From Verrucomicrobiota bacterium (GTDB lineage Bacteria > Verrucomicrobiota > Verrucomicrobiia > Limisphaerales > UBA1100): a stretch of DNA of 16,740 nucleotides. The DNA lies in NCBI GenBank assembly GCA_015660155.1, contig DQLO01000117.1:1-16740 (forward strand). Direction: 5' to 3'. Shown one piece after another: positions 163 to 16,740 of this stretch. Position 1 is the stretch's first letter, and each line of letters starts with the position of its first letter. The position numbers and the translations under genes are program-made. A model generated the notes under the pieces. It was not told the origin of the DNA, did no database searches, and was given only the letters and a program-made list of their open reading frames with translations.

Positions 163-2043
163 ATGGAGGAAAAAAGCACCAAACAGAATCGCAAAGCCAC
201 AAGGCGCTGGCTTGTCTTTTTTGCCGCAGTGATGCTGCTCTCGTTCGGCGCGCTCGGCTATCGCCTTATCGACCTCCAAGTGCTGCGGCACGACGAGCTG
301 CAATCGTCCGCGCGCGATAACACCATCCGCACCCTCATCCGCGAACCCCGCCGCGGCGACATCCGCGACATCCGCGGCAACCTCCTCGCCACCAGTTTGT
401 TTGTGAAAACCGTGTGCGCCGATCCCGCGCTGATTGGCAATTGGCATCCTCACGTGGCACACGCGCTGGCGCCGATTTTGGATTTAGATGAACAGGCTTT
501 GAGTCAGCGACTCAAGCCGCAAATGATGCTTAACGAACAGGGCATCCTCCGCACCAATCGCTACGTCGTCCTCAAGCGCAAAGTGCCGCGCGAAGTTTGG
601 GAACAGGCGCAAGGCGCGTTGCGCGATATGGAGTTGGGGCTGGATGAAACCAAGTTTACCCGAAAACAACGTCTTGCGTTTCGGAGTCTCCGGCGGCAAT
701 CGGTTTTCGCCGATCGCAAGGAAGATCAGCTGCGCGTTTACCCCGGCAATCATCACGCCGCGCACGTGCTCGGTTTCGTCGGCGGCGTCGACCATCGCGG
801 CAAGGAAGGCATCGAGCGCGTGCTCGATAGCAAACTCGTGGGCTCCCGCGGTTGGCGCGTCACCGAAACCGATTCCCGCAAGCGGGAAGTTGTCGCGCTG
901 CGCCAACAGGATGTCGCCCCGCGCAACGGGCTGCACGTGGTGCTCACCATCGATTCCGGCGTGCAACACATCGTCGAGGCCGAGCTCGCCAAGGCGATGG
1001 CCAAGCACCAGCCGCTGGGCATCACTGCCATCGTTGTGCGCCCCAAGACCGGCGCCATCGTGGCGATGGCCAACCTTCCGGACTTCGACCCCAACGCCCC
1101 CGGCATCGCCAAGCCGGAAACCCGCCGCAATCGCGCAGTGACCGACACCGCCGAACCTGGCTCAACTTTTAAAATCGTCCCCGTCGCGGCCGCGCTCAAT
1201 GAACGAATCGTCAGCCTTGCCTCCACGTTTCATTGCGAAAATGGATCCTTCCGATACGGCGGCCGCGTGTTGCGCGACCACCACGCGTACGGCAGTCTCA
1301 CGGTCAAAGCCATCATCACCAAGTCCTCCAACATCGGCGCGGCCAAGGTGGGGCTGCGGCTCGGCGCGCCGCGGTTGCACGCCTATATGCAGCGGTTTGG
1401 TTTCGGTGCCCGCACGCGAATTAGTTTGCCCGGTGAAGTGCGGGGCACGGTGCATCCATTAAAAAAATGGAACAAACTTTCCATCACCCGCGTGCCGATG
1501 GGCCACGAGGTCTCCGCCACGCCGTTGCAAATGGCGATGATGATGAGCGCGATCGCCAATGGCGGAAAGTTGATGCGGCCGATGGTGATGAATCATCTCG
1601 AAGATGACCGCGGGCGGGTGGTGGTGCAGTATCATCCCGAGCCCGTGCGACAGGTGGTTTCGCCCGAGGCCGCGCGCGCCATCACCGAGGCACTCAAGAC
1701 CGTGCCCCAACCCGGTGGCACCGCCAAGCGCGCCGCGCTCCAATACTACACCGTCGCCGGCAAAACCGGCACGGCGCAAAAAGCCGGACGCGGCGGTTAT
1801 CTCCCCGGCAAATACTACGCTTCCTTCGTGGGGTTTTTCCCCGCCGACGCGCCGGCGTTATGCATCCTCGTTTCGATTGACGAACCGAAGGGCGACTACT
1901 ACGGCGGACTCACCGCCGCGCCGGTCTTCAAGGCCATCGCCGAGCGCACCGCCGGATATCTCGGCTTGAAACCGGATCTCGTGCAACAGGGCTCCATACT
2001 TCCGGCAACGACCCCCAACCGCGTGAGTGATGAACGGCGCTGA
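163..2043 (+). CDS. ftsI: Septal class B penicillin-binding protein (peptidoglycan D,D-transpeptidase FtsI/PBP3)
   Basis: This enzyme crosslinks septal peptidoglycan by acyl-transfer from D-Ala-D-Ala stem peptides and works with FtsW. The 626-residue protein has a short basic cytoplasmic N-terminus, one membrane segment at about residues 15-35, a PBP dimerisation domain, and a C-terminal transpeptidase domain. All three penicillin-binding motifs are present: STFK with catalytic Ser334, SSN at 388-390, and KTGT at 534-537. There is no glycosyltransferase domain and no PASTA repeat, so it is class B and not of the Spo/PASTA type. The usual DRNG-like motif near the domain start reads DIRG here, a small deviation. 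The end overlaps the murE start by 14 bases, which suggests translational coupling. The position between ftsL and murE supports FtsI rather than the elongation enzyme PBP2. Confidence 0.95.
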   Translation: MEEKSTKQNRKATRRWLVFFAAVMLLSFGALGYRLIDLQVLRHDELQSSARDNTIRTLIREPRRGDIRDIRGNLLATSLFVKTVCADPALIGNWHPHVAHALAPILDLDEQALSQRLKPQMMLNEQGILRTNRYVVLKRKVPREVWEQAQGALRDMELGLDETKFTRKQRLAFRSLRRQSVFADRKEDQLRVYPGNHHAAHVLGFVGGVDHRGKEGIERVLDSKLVGSRGWRVTETDSRKREVVALRQQDVAPRNGLHVVLTIDSGVQHIVEAELAKAMAKHQPLGITAIVVRPKTGAIVAMANLPDFDPNAPGIAKPETRRNRAVTDTAEPGSTFKIVPVAAALNERIVSLASTFHCENGSFRYGGRVLRDHHAYGSLTVKAIITKSSNIGAAKVGLRLGAPRLHAYMQRFGFGARTRISLPGEVRGTVHPLKKWNKLSITRVPMGHEVSATPLQMAMMMSAIANGGKLMRPMVMNHLEDDRGRVVVQYHPEPVRQVVSPEAARAITEALKTVPQPGGTAKRAALQYYTVAGKTGTAQKAGRGGYLPGKYYASFVGFFPADAPALCILVSIDEPKGDYYGGLTAAPVFKAIAERTAGYLGLKPDLVQQGSILPATTPNRVSDERR

Positions 2044-3466
2044 GTTGCTCCACGGATTGCCGCACGAACTCGTGCGCGGCCAGCTCGATTCGACCGTCAC
2101 CGGCCTCGCTCATGATTCCCGCCAGGTTACTCCCGGCACCGCCTTCATCGCATTGCCCGGCACGCGCGTGGACGGCCACGACTTTGCCGCCACGGCGATT
2201 GAACTGGGCGCATCACTGATCATCACCGCACGCCCCGTCGAGTTGCCCGGTGAAACCGCAATCGTCCGTGTCGAGAATCCGCGCGCGGCGATGGCCCAAC
2301 TGGCCGCGCGATTTCACGGTGAACCGGCAGAAAAACTCCATCTCATCGGCATCACCGGCACCAACGGCAAAACCACCGTTGCCTTCATCGTGCGCGAACT
2401 GCTGCGCGGCGCGGGCCGTCGCTGCGGCCTCATCGGCACGGTGGAGTACGATCTTGGCGACCGCGTTATCCCCGCCGCCCGAACCACGCCGGAGTCGCTC
2501 GAGCTGCACGCGTACTTCGCGGGAATGATCCGCGCCGGATGCAAATTCTGCGTGATGGAAATCAGTTCCCACGCACTCGCGCAGCACCGCGTGGCGGGGC
2601 TTGAATTTCAAACTACCGCCTTCACCAACCTCACTCAGGACCATCTCGACTACCATGGCGACATGGAGAAATACTTCGCTGCCAAGCGAACGCTTTTCAC
2701 CCAACAACCCGCCGACGCGCAACGCCTCATCAATGCCGACAACCCCTTCGGTGAACGCCTCGCCGACGAATTTGCCGCCACCACTTTTGGTGAAGCGGTT
2801 TCCGATTTGCAAATCACCCAACTCCAATTGGGCCAGCAACAAACCGAATTCACCCTGGCCGGCGTCAATTTTACGATGCCCCTCATCGGACGCCACAATG
2901 TTTCCAATGCCGCCGCCGCGCTGGGCATCGTCCGCGCCGTCGGCTTGGAGTTGGCTGACTGCGTTCCGCTACTCGCGGCAATGCCGCCGGTGCCCGGTCG
3001 GCTTGAGCCCTTACGCGAAGGCCAGCCCTTTGCGGTTTATGTGGATTACGCTCACACCGATGACGCGCTGCGGCAAGTGCTCGGCACGCTGCGCGAAATT
3101 ACGCCGGGCCGTTTACGCGTTCTCTTCGGCTGTGGTGGAAACCGCGACACCGGCAAGCGCCGCAAAATGGGCGAAGCCGCAGCCGATTTGGCGGATGACA
3201 TCCTCATCACCACCGACAACCCGCGACATGAAAACCCGCATCTCATTGCCGAACAAGTCGCCGAAGGCTGCCCGGGAATGGGCCGCATCGAGTTGGATCG
3301 CGCGCGCGCCATCGACGAAATTCTGCGCGAAGCCAAAGCGGGTGACACCGTCCTCATCGCCGGCAAAGGCCACGAAACTTATCAGGAAATCGAGGACGTC
3401 GTGATGCCCTTCGACGACCGCGAACAAGCGCGCGCCGTGCTCGCCGCATTACACGAAGGCCACTGA
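2030..3466 (+). CDS. murE: UDP-MurNAc-L-Ala-D-Glu:meso-diaminopimelate ligase
   Basis: MurE is the cytoplasmic ATP-dependent ligase that adds the third stem-peptide residue. The 478-residue length is normal for the family. The N-terminal substrate domain is followed by the ATP loop GTNGKTT at 110-116, the central Mur ligase domain with the expected carbamoylated lysine K219 (in YFAAKRTLF), and the C-terminal domain. DNPR at 396-399 is the motif whose arginine contacts meso-DAP, so the substrate is DAP rather than lysine; GKGHE near the C-terminus fits the same subtype. A GTG immediately precedes the ATG at 2030, so a start at 2027 is also possible. The start lies inside the end of ftsI, and the stop TGA shares its last base with the murF ATG, indicating a tightly coupled operon. 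Confidence 0.96.
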   Translation: MNGAELLHGLPHELVRGQLDSTVTGLAHDSRQVTPGTAFIALPGTRVDGHDFAATAIELGASLIITARPVELPGETAIVRVENPRAAMAQLAARFHGEPAEKLHLIGITGTNGKTTVAFIVRELLRGAGRRCGLIGTVEYDLGDRVIPAARTTPESLELHAYFAGMIRAGCKFCVMEISSHALAQHRVAGLEFQTTAFTNLTQDHLDYHGDMEKYFAAKRTLFTQQPADAQRLINADNPFGERLADEFAATTFGEAVSDLQITQLQLGQQQTEFTLAGVNFTMPLIGRHNVSNAAAALGIVRAVGLELADCVPLLAAMPPVPGRLEPLREGQPFAVYVDYAHTDDALRQVLGTLREITPGRLRVLFGCGGNRDTGKRRKMGEAAADLADDILITTDNPRHENPHLIAEQVAEGCPGMGRIELDRARAIDEILREAKAGDTVLIAGKGHETYQEIEDVVMPFDDREQARAVLAALHEGH

Positions 3467-7573: not shown

Positions 7574-8443
7574 ATGAAGGAAACCAATCCAATCATTCCG
7601 CCGGGATTAAACTTTGAAGGTGCAAGCCGCGGCCGATCCAATATGCGAATGGCGGTCATCGTCGTAGTGCTGCTGCACGTGGCGCTGTTCACCGGCATTC
7701 TGTTCAACGCGTGCAAACAAAAGGACGAAGCCGCCGAAGGCATCAAATCCACCGCCGAGCAAATGGCCGAAATCGCCGGCCCGGCCCCCACGATAAAATC
7801 CGAGCCTCTGCCCGACCCCGTTCCCACGCCGCCCATCGGCAGTGGCAGCAGTAGCGGATTCAATCCACCGCCGATCATTCACAACCCGCCAATCGCAACT
7901 GGCGGCGGTTTCGAATCGACAACCGTGCCGCCGACGATTCCCCCAACCATTCCGCCACCACCCGTCACCGGCACGATGGAACACGTGGTGGCCAAGGGCG
8001 ACTCGTTTTATTCCATCGGCCGCAAGTACGGCGTGGGAATGAACGCGGTGGCCAAGGCCAACCCGAATATTGTTTCCACGCGATTGCGGATCGGGCAGAA
8101 GCTCATCATTCCCGCCGCGACGTCCGCGCCGGTGGTTGCGCTGCCCACGCCCGATGCGGCCAATGTGTACACCGTGAAAAGCGGCGACACGCTTGGCCAC
8201 ATCGCGCTCAAGTTTCGCACCAAGGTTGCCAACATAAAATCAGTCAACGGATTGACCTCGGACTTTCTCAAGATTGGCCAGAAACTCACCGTGCCAATGA
8301 GAACCTCCGCACCGCCCGCGCCCATTCCCACGGCGGCCCCGGCATTATCGCCGACCACCGGACTGCCGATTAGCGTGCCGGCACCGCCCATCGCGGTGGG
8401 GCCATCGAGCAGCAGCGTGGTGCCGCCTCCGCCCGCGGAGTAA
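7574..8443 (+). CDS. Membrane-anchored protein with two LysM domains
   Basis: The 289-residue protein has a short cytoplasmic start, one membrane helix at about 25-46, a Pro/Ser/Gly-rich linker at about 75-133, LysM domains at about 136-180 and 198-241, and a Pro-rich tail. LysM domains bind N-acetylglucosamine-containing glycans, so the protein probably tethers the inner membrane to peptidoglycan or positions a partner there. Both repeats have the typical 'V..GDs...I..ky.v....l...N' pattern ending in IGQKL. No catalytic domain (peptidase M23, amidase, NlpC/P60) is visible. A cysteine follows the helix (FNAC), but the preceding residues fit a lipobox poorly. It lies between murD and ftsW, which are often adjacent in dcw clusters, so a role in division or septal wall synthesis is likely but inferred. 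No gene name is recognised. Confidence 0.85.
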
Positions 8444-10680: not shown

Positions 10681-12084
10681 ATGAAACGACTGAACCGCGA
10701 GGAGATGGCCCAATGGCTGACGGAGGCGACGCCGGGCGCGCCGGTGTATCTCGTGGGCATCGGTGGCTGCGGGATGAGCGGGCTGGCGCATTTATTGCTG
10801 GACGCGGGCTTTGCGGTGCACGGTTCGGACCTTCAAGAAAATGTCGAGGTGCGTCAGTTGCGCGAACGCGGCGCGGAAATTTTCATCGGCCACGCGCCGG
10901 AACAACTCATCAACGTCCGGCCCGGCCTCGTGGTTTACAGCTCAGCCATTCGCACGGACAACCCGGAGCTGGCCGCCGCCGAGCAGCAGAGCCTTCCCGT
11001 GGCGCGCCGCGCGGTTTTGCTCGCGGCGTTGGCGCATCGGCGGCGCGGCGTTTGCATCGCGGGGATGCACGGCAAATCCACCACCACCGCGCTCCTTGCG
11101 TACACGCTGGAATCGCTCGGCGCGAAACCGGGCTACGCGGTGGGCGCGTTGGCACCGCAACTGGGCTGCCACGCGCGATTCAGTGCGGATGGCGCGGACG
11201 ATCCTTTTTTTGTGGTGGAAGCCGATGAGAGCGACGGCACGCTGCGCGAGTTTCATCCGCGCCAATCCATCGTGTTGAATATCGACGAGGAGCATCTTGA
11301 TTTTTATTCCAACTTCGAAGCGGTCTGCGATGAGTTCAGCACGTTCGCGGCGCAGACGAGTGGCACCTTGTTTTATTGCGCGGACGATTCGCGGTTGGTG
11401 GAGTTGTATAGTGGACAGCCGGAGGCCGTGACCTTTGGCTTCCATTCCACGGCAGATTATCGCGCCGAGATTCAGGCGGATCACAGCTTCATCGTGTGGC
11501 GGGGCGAGGCGCGGTTGGGCGAATTTACAATCCGTTTGTTTGGCGAGAAAAACGTTTCCAACGCGGTGGCGACAATCGCATTTTTGCATCACAACGGATT
11601 TTCTTCGGAGGAAATTGCCAATGCGGTGGCTGGCTTTCGCGGCGTGGAACGGCGGCAACAGGAAATTTTTCGCGATGAGCGCTTTCGCATTTTTGATGAT
11701 TACGGGCATCATCCGCGGGAAATCACCGCCACGCTTCGGGCCATCAAGGAACAATGCGGCGGGCGATTGGTGGTGGCGTTTCAGCCGCACCGTTATTCGC
11801 GCACGCAACATTTGCTCAGCGAATTTGCAGAGAGCTTTGGCGACGCGGATTTGTTGTGGGTCACGGAAGTGTACGCCGCCAGCGAGACACCCATTGCCGA
11901 CGTGAACGGCCAGCGACTGGCGGCGGCCATCAGCAAACAAGGGCAACCGGCGAGCTACGCGGCCTCGCTGGAGGTGCTGCGCGAAAAGATGCGGGCGGCG
12001 TTGCAGCCGGGCGATGTGGTGGTGTTCATTGGCGCGGGCGACATCACCCGCGTGGCGCACGAATTGGCGGCGGATTTGAAATGA
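10681..12084 (+). CDS. murC: UDP-N-acetylmuramate:L-alanine ligase
   Basis: MurC adds L-alanine to UDP-MurNAc, the first step of stem peptide assembly. The 467-residue protein shows the N-terminal GIGGCGMSG loop at 26-34, the ATP loop GMHGKSTTT at 128-136, VEADESDGTL in the central domain, and DDYGHHPREI with H343-H344 followed by QPHRYSRT in the C-terminal domain; these together are specific to MurC. Its length matches single-domain MurC proteins, and it is not fused to Ddl as in Chlamydia. No ribosome binding site is evident before ATG 10681. The stop overlaps the murB start within the sequence ATGATG, so the two are translationally coupled. Confidence 0.97.
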   Translation: MKRLNREEMAQWLTEATPGAPVYLVGIGGCGMSGLAHLLLDAGFAVHGSDLQENVEVRQLRERGAEIFIGHAPEQLINVRPGLVVYSSAIRTDNPELAAAEQQSLPVARRAVLLAALAHRRRGVCIAGMHGKSTTTALLAYTLESLGAKPGYAVGALAPQLGCHARFSADGADDPFFVVEADESDGTLREFHPRQSIVLNIDEEHLDFYSNFEAVCDEFSTFAAQTSGTLFYCADDSRLVELYSGQPEAVTFGFHSTADYRAEIQADHSFIVWRGEARLGEFTIRLFGEKNVSNAVATIAFLHHNGFSSEEIANAVAGFRGVERRQQEIFRDERFRIFDDYGHHPREITATLRAIKEQCGGRLVVAFQPHRYSRTQHLLSEFAESFGDADLLWVTEVYAASETPIADVNGQRLAAAISKQGQPASYAASLEVLREKMRAALQPGDVVVFIGAGDITRVAHELAADLK

Positions 12085-12995
12085 TGAACGGCCAAACTAA
12101 TTTCGAAGCGTTGCGAACCCAACTGAGTGAAGCCTCGCGGGTGGTGGAAAACGAGCCGCTGGCCAAGCGCACCACACTCGGCGTGGGCGGTCCGGCGGAA
12201 ATTTTTATTGAACCCGCAAGCGAGGCGGATCTCGCGCTGGCGTTGCGTCATTGCGCGGCAAATGATTTGCCGGTGTTTGTGCTGGGGCGCGGCTCGAATT
12301 TGCTGATTCGTGATGGCGGCATTCGCGGCGTGGTGGTGAGTTTGCAAAACGAATTTTTTTCGCGCATTGAAGTGCGCGGCGTGGAACTCCATTGCGGCGC
12401 GGGCGCTCGCCTTAAACACGTGGCCAATGCGGCGCGCGATGCGGGCTTGGCGGGCTTGGAATTTCTCGAGGGCATTCCCGGCTGTGTGGGCGGCGCGCTG
12501 CGGATGAATGCCGGCGCGATGGGCGCGATGACTTTCGAGGCGGTGGAGCGCGTGCGTTTTATGGGCCGCGATGGGAAGGTGGAGGAACGCCCGGCGGCGG
12601 AGATGGCGGCGGTGTATCGGAGTTGTCCCGTGTTGCGCAACACCATCGCCCTTGGCGCAGTGCTGCGCGGTGAGCCTGCCGAGGCTGAAACAGTGCGCGC
12701 ACGGATGGAAGATTTTCGTATGCGCCGCACGTCCTCCCAGCCGCACAATCGCAGCGCGGGGTGCATGTTCAAAAACCCCACTGAAAAACCGGCTGGTCAG
12801 CTTGTGGATGAGTGCAGGCTGAAAGGGCTTCGCGTGGGCGGCGCGAGTGTGTCGGATGTGCACGGCAATTTCATCATCAACGACGGTGGCGCAATTGCTA
12901 GCGACGTTATTGCGCTTATTGAGCAAGTGCGCGCGCAAGTGCTCAAAAAAACGGGAATCGAGATGCAGACTGAAGTGCAAATCGTCGGCGAATAA
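12081..12995 (+). CDS. murB: UDP-N-acetylenolpyruvoylglucosamine reductase
   Basis: MurB is the FAD enzyme that reduces UDP-GlcNAc-enolpyruvate to UDP-MurNAc with NADPH. The 304-residue protein has the FAD-binding segment RTTLGVGGPAE, GRGSNLLI, and EGIPGCVGGALRMNAGAMG, the YRSC segment, and the C-terminal domain with SAGCMFKNP. The proton-donating residue that is serine in E. coli (Ser229) is Cys228 here; this cysteine variant is also seen in other MurB lineages. Glu298 in QTEVQIVG fits the second catalytic acid. The first ATG overlaps the murC stop by four bases; a second ATG at 12084 directly follows and would shorten the protein by one residue. The MurB substrate made here feeds MurC encoded just upstream. 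Confidence 0.95.
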   Translation: MMNGQTNFEALRTQLSEASRVVENEPLAKRTTLGVGGPAEIFIEPASEADLALALRHCAANDLPVFVLGRGSNLLIRDGGIRGVVVSLQNEFFSRIEVRGVELHCGAGARLKHVANAARDAGLAGLEFLEGIPGCVGGALRMNAGAMGAMTFEAVERVRFMGRDGKVEERPAAEMAAVYRSCPVLRNTIALGAVLRGEPAEAETVRARMEDFRMRRTSSQPHNRSAGCMFKNPTEKPAGQLVDECRLKGLRVGGASVSDVHGNFIINDGGAIASDVIALIEQVRAQVLKKTGIEMQTEVQIVGE

Positions 12996-13060: not shown

Positions 13061-13969
13061 TTGGCAAATCAGTTCCACATCACCGTCATGGCCGGAGGGC
13101 CGGGCGCGGAACGGGAGATTTCATTGCGCTCGGGCGTGGCCGTGCAAAGGGCATTGCGCGCGTCGGGCCATTGCGTGAGGGAAGTAGACCCGATGGATAA
13201 AAACTGGAAACTTCCCCCCGACACAGAGGTGGTATTTTTGGCATTACACGGCGAATACGGCGAGGACGGTCAGGTGCAAACCCGTCTGGAAAATTTGGGC
13301 GTGCCGTACACCGGCACCGGCCCGGAAGGCAGCCGTGTGGCGTTTGACAAGGAATTGACGAAACAAGTGTTCGAGCAAAACGAAATCCCCACCCCGCGCT
13401 GGACGATGCTGGCGAACACTGCCGCGCCGCCGCCCGCAGATTTGGGCGAAGGCTGGGTGCTCAAGCCGCCGTGCCAAGGCTCCAGCGTGGGCCTGCAAAT
13501 CGTGGAAGCGCCGGAACAATGGAGCGAGGCCTTGGCCATCGCGGGCGATTATGGCGGGCCGGTTTTGTGCGAAGAACTGATTCGCGGCCGGGAAATCACC
13601 GTGGGCATTCTCGATGACGCCGCGCTGCCTATCGTTGAGGTACGCCCAAAGGACGGCCCGTACGATTACCACAACAAATACACCGTCGGTGCCACGGAAT
13701 ATTTTTGCCCGGCGGATTTGCCGGCGGACACTGCCGAGCGCATTACTGAAATCAGCCTGAAATCGTTCACGGTTGTTGGCGCATCGGAATTTGGCCGGGT
13801 GGATCTCATGCTCGATGAGGCGCTCAATCCCTTCGTGCTCGAGGTCAACACCCTGCCCGGGCTCACTGAGACGAGCCTCCTGCCCAAGGCCGCCGCCGCT
13901 GCGGGTATTGATTTTCCCGCGTTGTGCGGGCGGATGGTGGGTTTGGCTGTAAAAAATCATGTGGGGTAA
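13061..13969 (+). CDS. ddl: D-alanine:D-alanine ligase
   Basis: Ddl makes the D-Ala-D-Ala dipeptide used by MurF. With a TTG start at 13061 the protein has 302 residues, close to E. coli DdlB (306). The ATP-grasp features are all present: MAGGPGAERE with Glu17, LALHGEYGEDG, Lys135 in LKPPCQGSSVG, the omega loop DYHNKY with Lys206-Tyr207, and the metal and substrate residues of LEVNTLPG (Asn263) and Ser272. The tyrosine in the omega loop is the D-Ala type; VanA-like D-lactate ligases carry a different loop, so this is a housekeeping enzyme. An alternative TTG at 13019 is in frame but lacks a ribosome binding site and adds an atypical hydrophobic extension. The gene follows a 65-base gap with a promoter-like sequence, and its end overlaps ftsQ by 11 bases. 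Confidence 0.93.
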   Translation: MANQFHITVMAGGPGAEREISLRSGVAVQRALRASGHCVREVDPMDKNWKLPPDTEVVFLALHGEYGEDGQVQTRLENLGVPYTGTGPEGSRVAFDKELTKQVFEQNEIPTPRWTMLANTAAPPPADLGEGWVLKPPCQGSSVGLQIVEAPEQWSEALAIAGDYGGPVLCEELIRGREITVGILDDAALPIVEVRPKDGPYDYHNKYTVGATEYFCPADLPADTAERITEISLKSFTVVGASEFGRVDLMLDEALNPFVLEVNTLPGLTETSLLPKAAAAAGIDFPALCGRMVGLAVKNHVG

Positions 13970-14864
13970 AAAACGCAATCGCCGCCAGGGCCGGTATCGG
14001 CTGCTGGAAGTGGATCTGCCCGTGGGCAAGGCCCGCCGCCAGCGCGTGAAAGTGATCGCCCGCTGGGCCGGCAGCTTGCTTGGGGTGGCGGCGTTGTTCC
14101 TCGGCGTGTGGTACGGTGGCGCGTGGGTGATGCGCGTGGGCTTTTACGAGAATGAAATTTTCACCGTCAAAAAAATCGACGTGCGCGTGCAGGGCATCAT
14201 CCAGCCGGCTCACTTGCAAAAGATGGCGGGAGTGCGCACCGGTGAAAATTTATTTCAGGTTGATCTGCTGCGCGTGAAGCGCGACCTCGAGCTGACGCCG
14301 CTTATCGAAACCGCCGCCGTGGAACGCGTGTTGCCCGACACGCTGCGCCTGCGCATCGTCGAGCGCCGCCCGATTGCACAGGTGGTGGGCTATCGCCAAC
14401 AGGCCGATGGAAAACTCGCGCGGCAAGTTTACTGGCTCGACGCGCGCGGCGTGGTGATTCCGCCCATCGCCCCCGGCCTCACCGCGCAAAAGAAACAACC
14501 CAAATGGCTACCGCTCATCGTAGGCATTCCGCCCGCCAAATTGTTGCCCGGGCGCACTGTGGATTCGCCCGCGCTGCGTTCGGCGTTGCAACTCGTTAGC
14601 CGTTACGATCTTTCGCCCATGGCCGGCCTCGCGCACTTGCGGCAGATTGATGTGTCCGACAGCCGAACGCTGGGCGTCGTCACCTGGCAAGGCGCGCGCG
14701 TCACGCTTGGCCTCAATGGCTTAGACGCGCAACTCCAGCGCTGGCGGCAAATTTATGACCTCGGCCGGCAACATCATCGCGCCGTGGCCACCGTGGATTT
14801 ATCCATTAAAAACAATCTCCCCGTGCGCTGGGTGCAAGCGCCTGCCCGTCCCGCGGGCGGCTGA
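13959..14864 (+). CDS. ftsQ: Cell division protein FtsQ/DivIB (POTRA domain)
   Basis: FtsQ is a bitopic inner membrane protein that links the early cytoplasmic divisome to FtsL, FtsB, FtsW and FtsI. The 301-residue protein has a strongly basic cytoplasmic N-terminus (about residues 1-35), one membrane helix at about 36-58, and a periplasmic POTRA domain from about residue 67 (FTVKKIDVRVQG, then RTGENLFQVD and ERVLPDTLRLRIVERRP), followed by the beta domain. This layout and the ERxxPxTLxixVxERxP-like signature are typical of FtsQ. Sequence conservation is otherwise low, as usual in the family. The start lies within the last codons of ddl, and ftsA follows after four bases, giving the conserved ddl-ftsQ-ftsA-ftsZ order. 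Confidence 0.9.
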   Translation: MWGKKRNRRQGRYRLLEVDLPVGKARRQRVKVIARWAGSLLGVAALFLGVWYGGAWVMRVGFYENEIFTVKKIDVRVQGIIQPAHLQKMAGVRTGENLFQVDLLRVKRDLELTPLIETAAVERVLPDTLRLRIVERRPIAQVVGYRQQADGKLARQVYWLDARGVVIPPIAPGLTAQKKQPKWLPLIVGIPPAKLLPGRTVDSPALRSALQLVSRYDLSPMAGLAHLRQIDVSDSRTLGVVTWQGARVTLGLNGLDAQLQRWRQIYDLGRQHHRAVATVDLSIKNNLPVRWVQAPARPAGG

Positions 14865-14868
14865 AACC

Positions 14869-16083
14869 ATGTTTGATAAATCAGAAATAATTGTGGGCTT
14901 GGAAATTGGCACCGCCAAAGTGTGCGCCGTGGTTGGCGAAGCCGATGCCGATGGCGCGCTGGAATTCCTCGGCGTTGGCACGGAGCCCACCCGGGGCGCG
15001 GTACGCAAAGGCGAGATTGTGAATGCCGATCTCGCCGAGGAAGCCATTCGCGCCGCGCTGGCTGCTGCTGAGGAAAGCGCGGATGTGGAATTGCGCAGCG
15101 TTTATTTATCGGCCACCGGTAGCCACATCGAGGGCAATAATTATCACGGAGTGCATCCGATCGCCTCGGTAGATCGCGCAATCGACGAGGAAGACCTTAA
15201 GGCAGTGGAACGCAAGGCGCATCCAAAATTGACCGTTGGACGCGAGGTGCTGGACGCGTTGCGGCAGGGTTATCGTGTGGATGGACAGGGCGGCGTGGAG
15301 AATCCACTGGGCCGGTTTGCCTCGCGGCTGGAGGTGGATGCCCACGTGGTGAGCGGCCAAATTACGCGCCTGCAAAATTCCGTATGTGCGGTCAAGGGGT
15401 TAGGGCTGGAGGTGGAGGCTCTCGCCTTCGCCGGCCGCGCTGCCGCCTGTGCCGCGCTATCGCCCGAGCAATGCGAGCTGGGCGCGCTGCTCATCGATCT
15501 TGGCGCGGGCACAACGGATTATGTGGTTTATCATAACCGCTCGTTGCGCCACAGCCGCGTGATTGCCGTGGGGGGCGAGCACGTTTCGAATGACATTTCC
15601 GTGGGGCTGAAGCTTTCCAACGCGCGCGCGGAAAAGCTCAAGGTCGACCACGGCGCGGCCTTGCCCGACCCCACCGCGCACGGGCGCACGGTGAATCTTA
15701 CCAGCGACGTGGGTCTCGATAATCGGACTGTAAGCATCAGTCATTTGCATCAGGTAATGAACGCGCGACTGGAGGAATTGCTGATGCTCATTCGCGATGA
15801 CCTTGCGCGCGCCGGGCTGCTGGCGCATTTGCGTGCGGGGGTGGTGCTCACCGGTGGCGGCGCGCGCGTGCCGGAGCTGGAACGGCTGGCTACGCAGGTG
15901 TTTCAAATGTCCGTGCAAACCGCCCGGGCCAAGGCGGGCAGCGGGCCGAGCAGTATTTTGGATGAACCCGAGTGCAGCACCGCGCTGGGGCTCGTAAAGC
16001 TGGGCGTGCAACAACGCGCCGCCCAGCGTCAATCGCGCACGGGCGTGTTCGATTGGCTGGCCGGCAAACTGGTGGGAGCATAA
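14869..16083 (+). CDS. ftsA: Cell division protein FtsA (actin-like FtsZ membrane anchor)
   Basis: FtsA is an actin-family ATPase that attaches FtsZ filaments to the membrane and recruits later division proteins. The 404-residue protein has the phosphate-1 motif LEIGTAKV at 11-18 (most FtsA have LDIGT), a 1C subdomain region around residues 80-165, the phosphate-2 motif DLGAGTTD at 210-217, GGEHVSNDI from 235, and the adenosine motif VLTGGGA at 326-332. It ends in the short amphipathic sequence FDWLAGKLVGA (394-404), which fits the membrane-targeting helix. The frame is open 38 codons upstream, but that part overlaps ftsQ out of frame; ATG 14869 matches the family N-terminus. The protein looks like an intact, conventional FtsA, in contrast to the diverged FtsZ encoded one base after its stop. 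Confidence 0.95.
   Translation: MFDKSEIIVGLEIGTAKVCAVVGEADADGALEFLGVGTEPTRGAVRKGEIVNADLAEEAIRAALAAAEESADVELRSVYLSATGSHIEGNNYHGVHPIASVDRAIDEEDLKAVERKAHPKLTVGREVLDALRQGYRVDGQGGVENPLGRFASRLEVDAHVVSGQITRLQNSVCAVKGLGLEVEALAFAGRAAACAALSPEQCELGALLIDLGAGTTDYVVYHNRSLRHSRVIAVGGEHVSNDISVGLKLSNARAEKLKVDHGAALPDPTAHGRTVNLTSDVGLDNRTVSISHLHQVMNARLEELLMLIRDDLARAGLLAHLRAGVVLTGGGARVPELERLATQVFQMSVQTARAKAGSGPSSILDEPECSTALGLVKLGVQQRAAQRQSRTGVFDWLAGKLVGA
16074..16078 (+). promoter_or_regulatory. Ribosome binding site of the ftsZ-family gene
   Basis: GGGAG within the last ftsA codons lies six bases before ATG 16085, a normal spacing. Confidence 0.5.
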
Positions 16084-16084
16084 A

Positions 16085-16740
16085 ATGTCAAAACAACCAC
16101 AGACCCCCGGAGTGAATGTGAAAGTCGTGGGCCTCGGTGGCGCGGGCGGGCGGGTGGTGGATAGCCTTGCCGCGCTGGGCTTTCCCGCCGCGCGTTTTCT
16201 CGCGGTGGATACGGACAGCGAAAAACTCCAGCACTGCCAACTTGCCGCGAAACTGCAGCTCGGCGAAAGCGCCCGGCGCGGCTGGGGTTGCAGTGGCGAT
16301 GCCGGCGCGGGAGCGGCGTGCATGCGCGCGGCGAAAGATACATTATCGGAAAAACTGGCGGACACCGATTTGGTTTTACTCGTCACCGGTTTGGCCGGCG
16401 GACTGGGCGGCGGCGGCGCGCCCGTGGTGGCGGAGATTGCCGCCGATGCCGGCGCGCTGGTGGTGGCACTGGCCATCGAGCCGTTTGATTTGGAAGGGCT
16501 TGACGCCCAGTCGCGCGAGGCCCTCCAACGGCTGCGGGGCACAGCCGACACCGTGGTGTGCATGCCCAACCAAGCCGTGATGGATCGGCAGCCGGGCGGA
16601 GCTTCGGTCCCCGAATGTTTTGAGGCGGCCAATAATTTGATTCTCGAGGCGCTCTTGGGAATGGGCCGGTTGCTGCGAACCGATGGCCAGATGAATATTG
16701 ATTTTGCTCATTTCCATTCGATGATGTCCGGTCGCCACAC
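16085..16740 (+). CDS. ftsZ: Divergent FtsZ-family protein (3' end outside window)
   Basis: The position after ftsA and the overall pattern identify this as the tubulin-like division GTPase FtsZ; 218 residues of the GTPase domain are visible. Recognisable parts are VVGLGGAGGR (16-23, loop T1), LAVDTD at 39-44, RGWGCSGDAGAG (65-76, loop T3), VTGLAGGLGGGGAPVVAEIA (100-119, loop T4), IEPFDLEG (131-138, loop T5), MPNQAV (160-165) and NIDFA (204-208). Many positions are changed: the tubulin signature GGGTGTG reads AGGLGGG with both threonines lost, the T1 asparagine is Arg23, the asparagine of AVNTD is Asp, the ANP of T3 is not kept, and the arginine after the EG of T5 is missing. The catalytic T7 loop and C-terminal peptide lie beyond the window. 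It may be the only FtsZ of a lineage with relaxed sequence or a paralogue with altered nucleotide use. Confidence 0.85.
   Translation, partial: MSKQPQTPGVNVKVVGLGGAGGRVVDSLAALGFPAARFLAVDTDSEKLQHCQLAAKLQLGESARRGWGCSGDAGAGAACMRAAKDTLSEKLADTDLVLLVTGLAGGLGGGGAPVVAEIAADAGALVVALAIEPFDLEGLDAQSREALQRLRGTADTVVCMPNQAVMDRQPGGASVPECFEAANNLILEALLGMGRLLRTDGQMNIDFAHFHSMMSGRH

Follow-up and report, generated by a model that had tools for sequence, protein, structure and literature searches.

Whether a bacterial FtsZ can lose the residues of its GTPase site and still serve in cell division is the question raised by a 16,740-nucleotide stretch of DNA (hereafter the window) from a Verrucomicrobiota bacterium (assembly GCA_015660155.1, contig DQLO01000117.1; GTDB lineage Limisphaerales, UBA1100), at the end of which an ftsZ gene follows ftsA. 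FtsZ is regarded as a guanosine triphosphatase (GTPase), whose hydrolysis of GTP drives treadmilling and distributes wall synthesis round the septum. In the window protein both the T4 signature and the T7 loop are broken, and similar erosion is spread over many families of the order, the class and the phylum. We put the probability at roughly one half that this protein is a conserved division scaffold, tethered by FtsA, with little GTP turnover.

Identity, active site and copy number

The gene lies directly after ftsA inside the division and cell wall (dcw) cluster, and its product matches PF00091 with 88.1 bits against a cut-off of 33, indicating homology to the GTPase domain. The match to TIGR00065 (E 3.9e-50) reached 171.1 bits for the truncated gene, below the equivalog cut-off of 295.2, and uncut orthologs also remained under this value (182.6 in genome G003, 168.8 in G005). 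The predicted fold is that of FtsZ with its C-terminal domain. The window copy ends before the FtsA-binding tail, which is present in all six full-length orthologs of the genus. A preliminary description of this DNA, made from its letters, had recognised FtsZ by its fold and by its place after a sound ftsA, to which the tail of the full-length relatives can now be added. The 52 distinct solved sequences that matched were all named FtsZ except 3zid (Tubulin/FtsZ GTPase); since none was named BtubA or BtubB, identity with these bacterial tubulins was rejected, and the link to them drawn in that description was not upheld.

Residues were compared by alignment to E. coli K-12 FtsZ, the numbering of which is used below (Table 1). 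The T4 signature, quoted as [SAG]GGTG[SAT]G in PMC1845146, is replaced by AGGLGGG, and the T7 loop NxDxxD reads NIDFAH. Four of the seven scored positions (24, 108, 142, 165, 207, 209, 212) are altered; E138, N165, N207, D209 and the glycines of T1 and T4 are retained. We take D212 to be the catalytic aspartate of T7; within the site, T108 (a threonine of T4) would lie at the phosphate end and D187 on the guanine side. The T4 letters, Arg23, Asp42, the SGD of T3 and the missing arginine after T5 had all been read correctly; the T7 loop, proposed for inspection in the rest of the gene, falls within the window and adds a change of D212 to histidine that the description did not contain.

The T4 letters and the T7 histidine are common to all seven genomes of the genus (T7 reads SIDFAH in G003). 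Among the 15 closest database proteins, which include the window's own (P0016), the T7 histidine occurs in all 15 and AGGLGGG in 14, the remaining one being without aligned sequence there. At T4 the synonymous codons differ among relatives and the residues are constant; a DNA pattern built for glycine codons yielded nothing. The ratio of nonsynonymous to synonymous substitution rates (dN/dS) of ftsZ was 0.024–0.124, ruling out a pseudogene. That the T4 region is an assembly or sequencing error, foreseen as a possible refutation, could be thought of because the source is a draft genome of 423 contigs; we give it next to no weight, since seven independent genomes, and database proteins as well, carry the same residues, in the genomes with different synonymous codons.

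Exactly one PF00091 gene was found in 19 of the 20 genomes of the family and none in the other (G015, 50% complete); each of the ten genomes with a completeness of 90% or more encodes exactly one. The window's own genome also encodes one, but is 73.6% complete. A protein search returned one extra weak place, in G004 (19.6 bits), with an internal stop and without a PF00091 match. The earlier suggestion of a second tubulin-like protein finds no support in this family. MreB was above its cut-off in 17 of the 20 genomes.

Motif erosion and tail retention across the phylum

For the survey, 270 FtsZ sequences were aligned, 149 from the order (60 families), 67 from the class (29 families) and 54 from the phylum (30 families). 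The order set consists of 135 genomes with a TIGR00065 match, G139 and 13 further genomes from the window's family; the class and phylum sets are uneven, being made up of the best-scoring loci plus one to few chosen per family. Ten rows gapped in T4 or T7 were excluded from joint counts, leaving 260 usable. Within the order the T4 pattern was retained in 70/149 and the T7 pattern in 43/149. Among the 147 usable order members, 40 retained both motifs, 29 only T4 and 3 only T7, and both were broken in 75; the window's family contributed 19 of these 75 and none of the 40, the remaining 128 members accounting for 56 and 40. Residue 108 was neither Thr nor Ser in 48/147 (16 families) and residue 212 was not Asp in 45/147 (20 families). 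The replacements for D212 are varied (H, T, E, A, R, S). In the class both motifs were retained in 12 and broken in 22 of 64 proteins, and in the phylum in 6 and 33 of 49. Motif erosion thus reaches numerous families at each of these three ranks, against the lineage-specific filament of the preliminary description; the changed GTP contacts it listed stand, but two of them, N73D in T3 (221/270) and N43D (112/270), are ordinary in the verrucomicrobial FtsZs examined.

TIGR00065 found FtsZ in 135 of 146 order genomes, 36 above cut-off (controls: 13 of 14 found, 13 above), and FtsA was found in all 146, 137 above cut-off (controls: 11 found, 7 above), pass rates that are not on one scale, the two cut-offs having been curated separately. 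With 7 FtsA and 13 FtsZ above cut-off, the control genomes show that FtsA does not, as a rule, pass more readily than FtsZ.

Loss of T108 with an intact T7 triad was seen in 1 of the 64 T108-lost proteins among the 260 (family-level Fisher p 0.004). D212 was retained in 30 of these 64, so that there is no nesting for D212 alone, and a test on phylogenetically independent pairs gave too few informative pairs and a median p of 1; on these two grounds no order of events, with decay of T4 always following that of T7, is claimed. Parsimony on a partial FtsA tree required, for the order (145 rows), 20 changes of D212 and 15 of T108; with all rows included the figures were 35 and 30, on a weakly supported topology (35 of 144 inner branches starred, long-branch warning). 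Such counts cannot separate gain from loss, and many separate losses are therefore a reading of them.

Three end-members have no T4 glycine loop. T4 reads GDDCSDP in G119 (tail NLDEPTFQRK) and GRPSTSS in G084 (L161, order family f61; tail DLDIPTFIRN), and nothing recognisable aligned there in G139 (L213, order family f21; tail NLDEPTYLRK). The G139 gene (1642–2907, minus strand), undetected by TIGR00065, was identified as the open reading frame (ORF) just after its ftsA; it encodes the C-terminal half of FtsZ and the tail, and its AlphaFold model was poor (predicted local distance difference test, pLDDT, 50.7; predicted template modelling score, pTM, 0.48). As for named organisms, Pedosphaera parvula has a canonical FtsZ (T4 GGGTGTG, T7 NVDFND), Fontisphaera persica combines GGGTGSG with HLDLGA, and Methylacidiphilum kamchatkense has GGAMGSA and SINFPS. 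This natural series begins with a full GTPase and ends where a T4 loop can no longer be recognised, and it makes the need for GTP hydrolysis by FtsZ directly testable. The 12 genomes of class family f72 have a near-normal T4 (GGGTGSG in 11, GGGTSSG in one), but T, A or G replaces D212 in every one of them, which provides in nature a single-site test of whether D212 is required. Separately, a second weak TIGR00065 match occurs in G281, G289, G308 and G343 of the phylum (L288 and L289 for two of them); these ORFs of 366–376 amino acids (aa) are possibly an FtsZ-like paralog.

The tail pattern [LIMVY][DN]xPxxxR, widened because the third residue varies, was present in 140/149 order, 66/67 class and 53/54 phylum proteins (108, 47 and 38 with a stricter pattern), and in 70 of the 75 order FtsZs with both motifs broken. 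The C-terminal peptide, to which the preliminary description had pointed as a check, is thus found well beyond the genus. Five of the nine order misses lie at contig ends (G000, G076, G098, G146, G151), G012 and G093 run into masked bases, and G045 and G092 are fragmented. Median within-family identity was 0.62 for the FtsZ core and 0.61 for the FtsA piece compared (about the last 200 residues). The altered FtsZ evolves about like FtsA, slightly faster, and this similarity of rate argues against a relic.

Possible modes of action

The window protein is the organism's FtsZ, linked to FtsA by a C-terminal tail as judged from its full-length relatives, with a GTPase site that has been dismantled by the combination of T7 catalytic Asp to His, T4 Thr to Leu, loss of the R142 segment and T1 Asn to Arg. 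Such a protein would be expected to bind nucleotide weakly or slowly and to form head-to-tail filaments, with little or no GTP hydrolysis and, for that reason, little treadmilling. FtsA would hold this slow-turnover scaffold at the membrane, where it may collect the septal wall synthases, constriction being powered mainly by wall synthesis. In E. coli, T108A reduced GTPase activity and stopped treadmilling while rings still formed (PMC8175707), D212A retained 7% activity (PMC8142252), and D212N gave stable filaments (PMC12754632). The window FtsZ joins changes at both positions, 108 and 212; the simplest reading is a slow or static scaffold tethered by FtsA. Loss of hydrolysis is thus suggested by analogy with these mutants, and filament formation and the scaffold role are predictions. 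A non-hydrolysing scaffold was among the options of the preliminary description; in its weakly or non-hydrolysing form it is now the best reading, at the even odds given above, and is strengthened by D212H. Of that earlier interpretation as a whole, the FtsZ identity, the altered contacts and the scaffold survive, and the second tubulin, the Btub link and the lineage-specific filament do not.

Several observations weigh against a scaffold of this kind. Nitrosopumilus FtsZ (AGKAGSA, no T7) failed to polymerise in yeast (PMC3684127), so that filaments are not assured here. In the window's own family, the ftsZ ORF of G001 (L214) has 296 aa and lacks most of the C-terminal domain, a poor match to the usual protofilament. 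Of 431 within-family pairs, 291 had lower identity in the FtsZ core than in the FtsA piece, though the medians are alike. Histidine stands at position 212 in nine families and may be a working substitute, and the changes may offset one another. Glu138 is retained in 270/270 FtsZs, even those without T4 (the G139 alignment is weak here), a hint at a remaining role with a nucleotide or at an interface; its constancy is without explanation if nucleotide binding has been lost there. As an observation of its own, the shortened G001 protein, from a single draft genome, still carries a normal FtsA-binding tail at its end.

The main rival is an altered yet working GTPase, in which His209 (position 212) or another residue catalyses, the T4 glycines bind phosphate by their backbone and the filament turns over. 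The recurrence of histidine just noted, glutamate at 212 in 10/149 order members, the retained N165, E138 and T4 glycines, and family f72, with intact T4 and D212 gone throughout, are all in its favour. We nevertheless consider it unlikely, as the variety of letters at 212 resembles loss rather than replacement, with T108L, N24R and the missing R142 segment pointing the same way. Improbable to a further degree is a vestigial FtsZ heading for loss, with FtsZ-free division as in Planctomycetota and Chlamydiota: the graded erosion down to the three end-members and the sister phyla without FtsZ (PMC12283558) would fit it, but the dN/dS range, the retained tail and the continued adjacency of ftsZ to ftsA speak against it, as does the essential ftsZ of Verrucomicrobium spinosum (PMC12283558), though that FtsZ is nearer the canonical form. 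Similarly doubtful is that another nucleotide or none is bound, assembly being left to other means, such as partner proteins or lateral contacts. Asn for D187, Arg for N24 and the end-members without a T4 loop would suit this idea; no direct evidence points to another ligand, however, and the window protein retains E138 and N165.

For the phylum we advance a broader proposal, tentatively and with less confidence than for the window protein: in many separate Verrucomicrobiota lineages FtsZ hydrolysis (at the extreme, the T4 loop) may have been abandoned and a selected, FtsA-tethered scaffold kept. Verrucomicrobial bacteria with similar losses may divide using a ring of scant GTP turnover. If true, bacteria with retained peptidoglycan-synthesis genes would not depend on treadmilling to form a septum, and FtsZ function would have its conserved core in the tail and fold rather than in the GTPase. 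According to a 2025 paper (PMC12283558), most Verrucomicrobiota probably divide canonically with FtsZ; in the survey here, much of the phylum combines broken GTPase motifs with a retained FtsA and FtsA-binding tail. In the literature searched, which was covered in part, no description of T4 or T7 residue loss in FtsZ of this order was found, and relative to that literature phylum-wide active-site loss with tail and FtsA retained appears to be new.

Genomic context and comparison with known systems

The dcw cluster at the end of the window includes genes for a penicillin-binding protein, mraY, ftsW, murG, murC, murB, ddl, probable ftsQ, ftsA and ftsZ (Table 1). Here murC and murB are separate, unlike in V. 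spinosum, where they are fused as murCB (PMC12283558). Between ftsW and murD, the latter assigned by position and reading of the sequence only, lies a gene whose product has two LysM-like stretches.

Table 1. Positions in the window of ftsZ, its active-site motifs and selected dcw genes
Feature	Position	Strand	Remarks
LysM-like protein	7574–8443	+	two LysM-like stretches
murC and murB	10681–12995	+	separate overlapping ORFs
probable ftsQ	13959–14864	+	weak match, 33.6 bits (cut-off 353); position preceding ftsA
ftsA	14869–16083	+	404 aa; TIGR01174 313 bits (cut-off 175.85); PF14450 and PF02491 above cut-off; stops one base before ftsZ
ftsZ, eroded GTPase site	16085–16738	+	218 codons, open-ended at contig end (16740); full-length 98% ortholog L003, 391 aa
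T1 GLGGAGGR	16130–16153	+	Arg23 where E. coli has N24
T2 AVDTD	16202–16216	+	Asp42 where E. coli has N43
T3 CSGDA	16289–16303	+	E. coli AGANP; D at N73
T4 AGGLGGG, residues 104–110	16394–16414	+	E. coli GGGTGTG, 105–111: G105A, T108L, T110G
T5 EPFDLEG	16478–16498	+	Glu137 (E. coli E138) retained; R142 segment two residues shorter
MPNQ	16562–16573	+	Asn162 (E. coli N165) retained
AANN	16625–16636	+	Asn184 where E. coli has D187
T7 NIDFAH, residues 204–209	16694–16711	+	E. coli NVDFAD; His209 where D212 stands

The window FtsZ resembles canonical E. coli K-12 FtsZ in its fold, its location after ftsA and, in its relatives, an LDIPxFxR-like tail, and departs from it in AGGLGGG, NIDFAH, N24R, D187N and the missing R142 segment. 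BtubA and BtubB of Prosthecobacter belong to the same superfamily and phylum, but they are tubulin-like and coexist with FtsZ (PMC3232192), whereas no second PF00091 gene was found in the family studied here. Nitrosopumilus maritimus FtsZ has likewise lost the T4 signature and the T7 loop; in that organism, however, Cdv is thought to divide the cell and FtsZ did not polymerise in yeast (PMC3684127), whereas here ftsZ follows ftsA in a dcw cluster and the relatives have an FtsA-binding tail. Within the phylum, V. spinosum FtsZ has also been called divergent, although it keeps the tubulin signature GGGTGSG and is essential (PMC1845146, PMC12283558). In Methylacidiphilum, of the same phylum but from a different family of the class (f68), T4 and T7 are eroded through other substitutions (M. 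kamchatkense) and the tail persists; accelerated evolution of its ftsZ has been reported with data not shown, and that of Prosthecobacter by citation (PMC2474590). Finally, two positions are shared with the E. coli mutants T108A, D212A and D212N (PMC8175707, PMC8142252, PMC12754632); those are single laboratory changes, whereas in the window FtsZ several changes are combined and naturally fixed.
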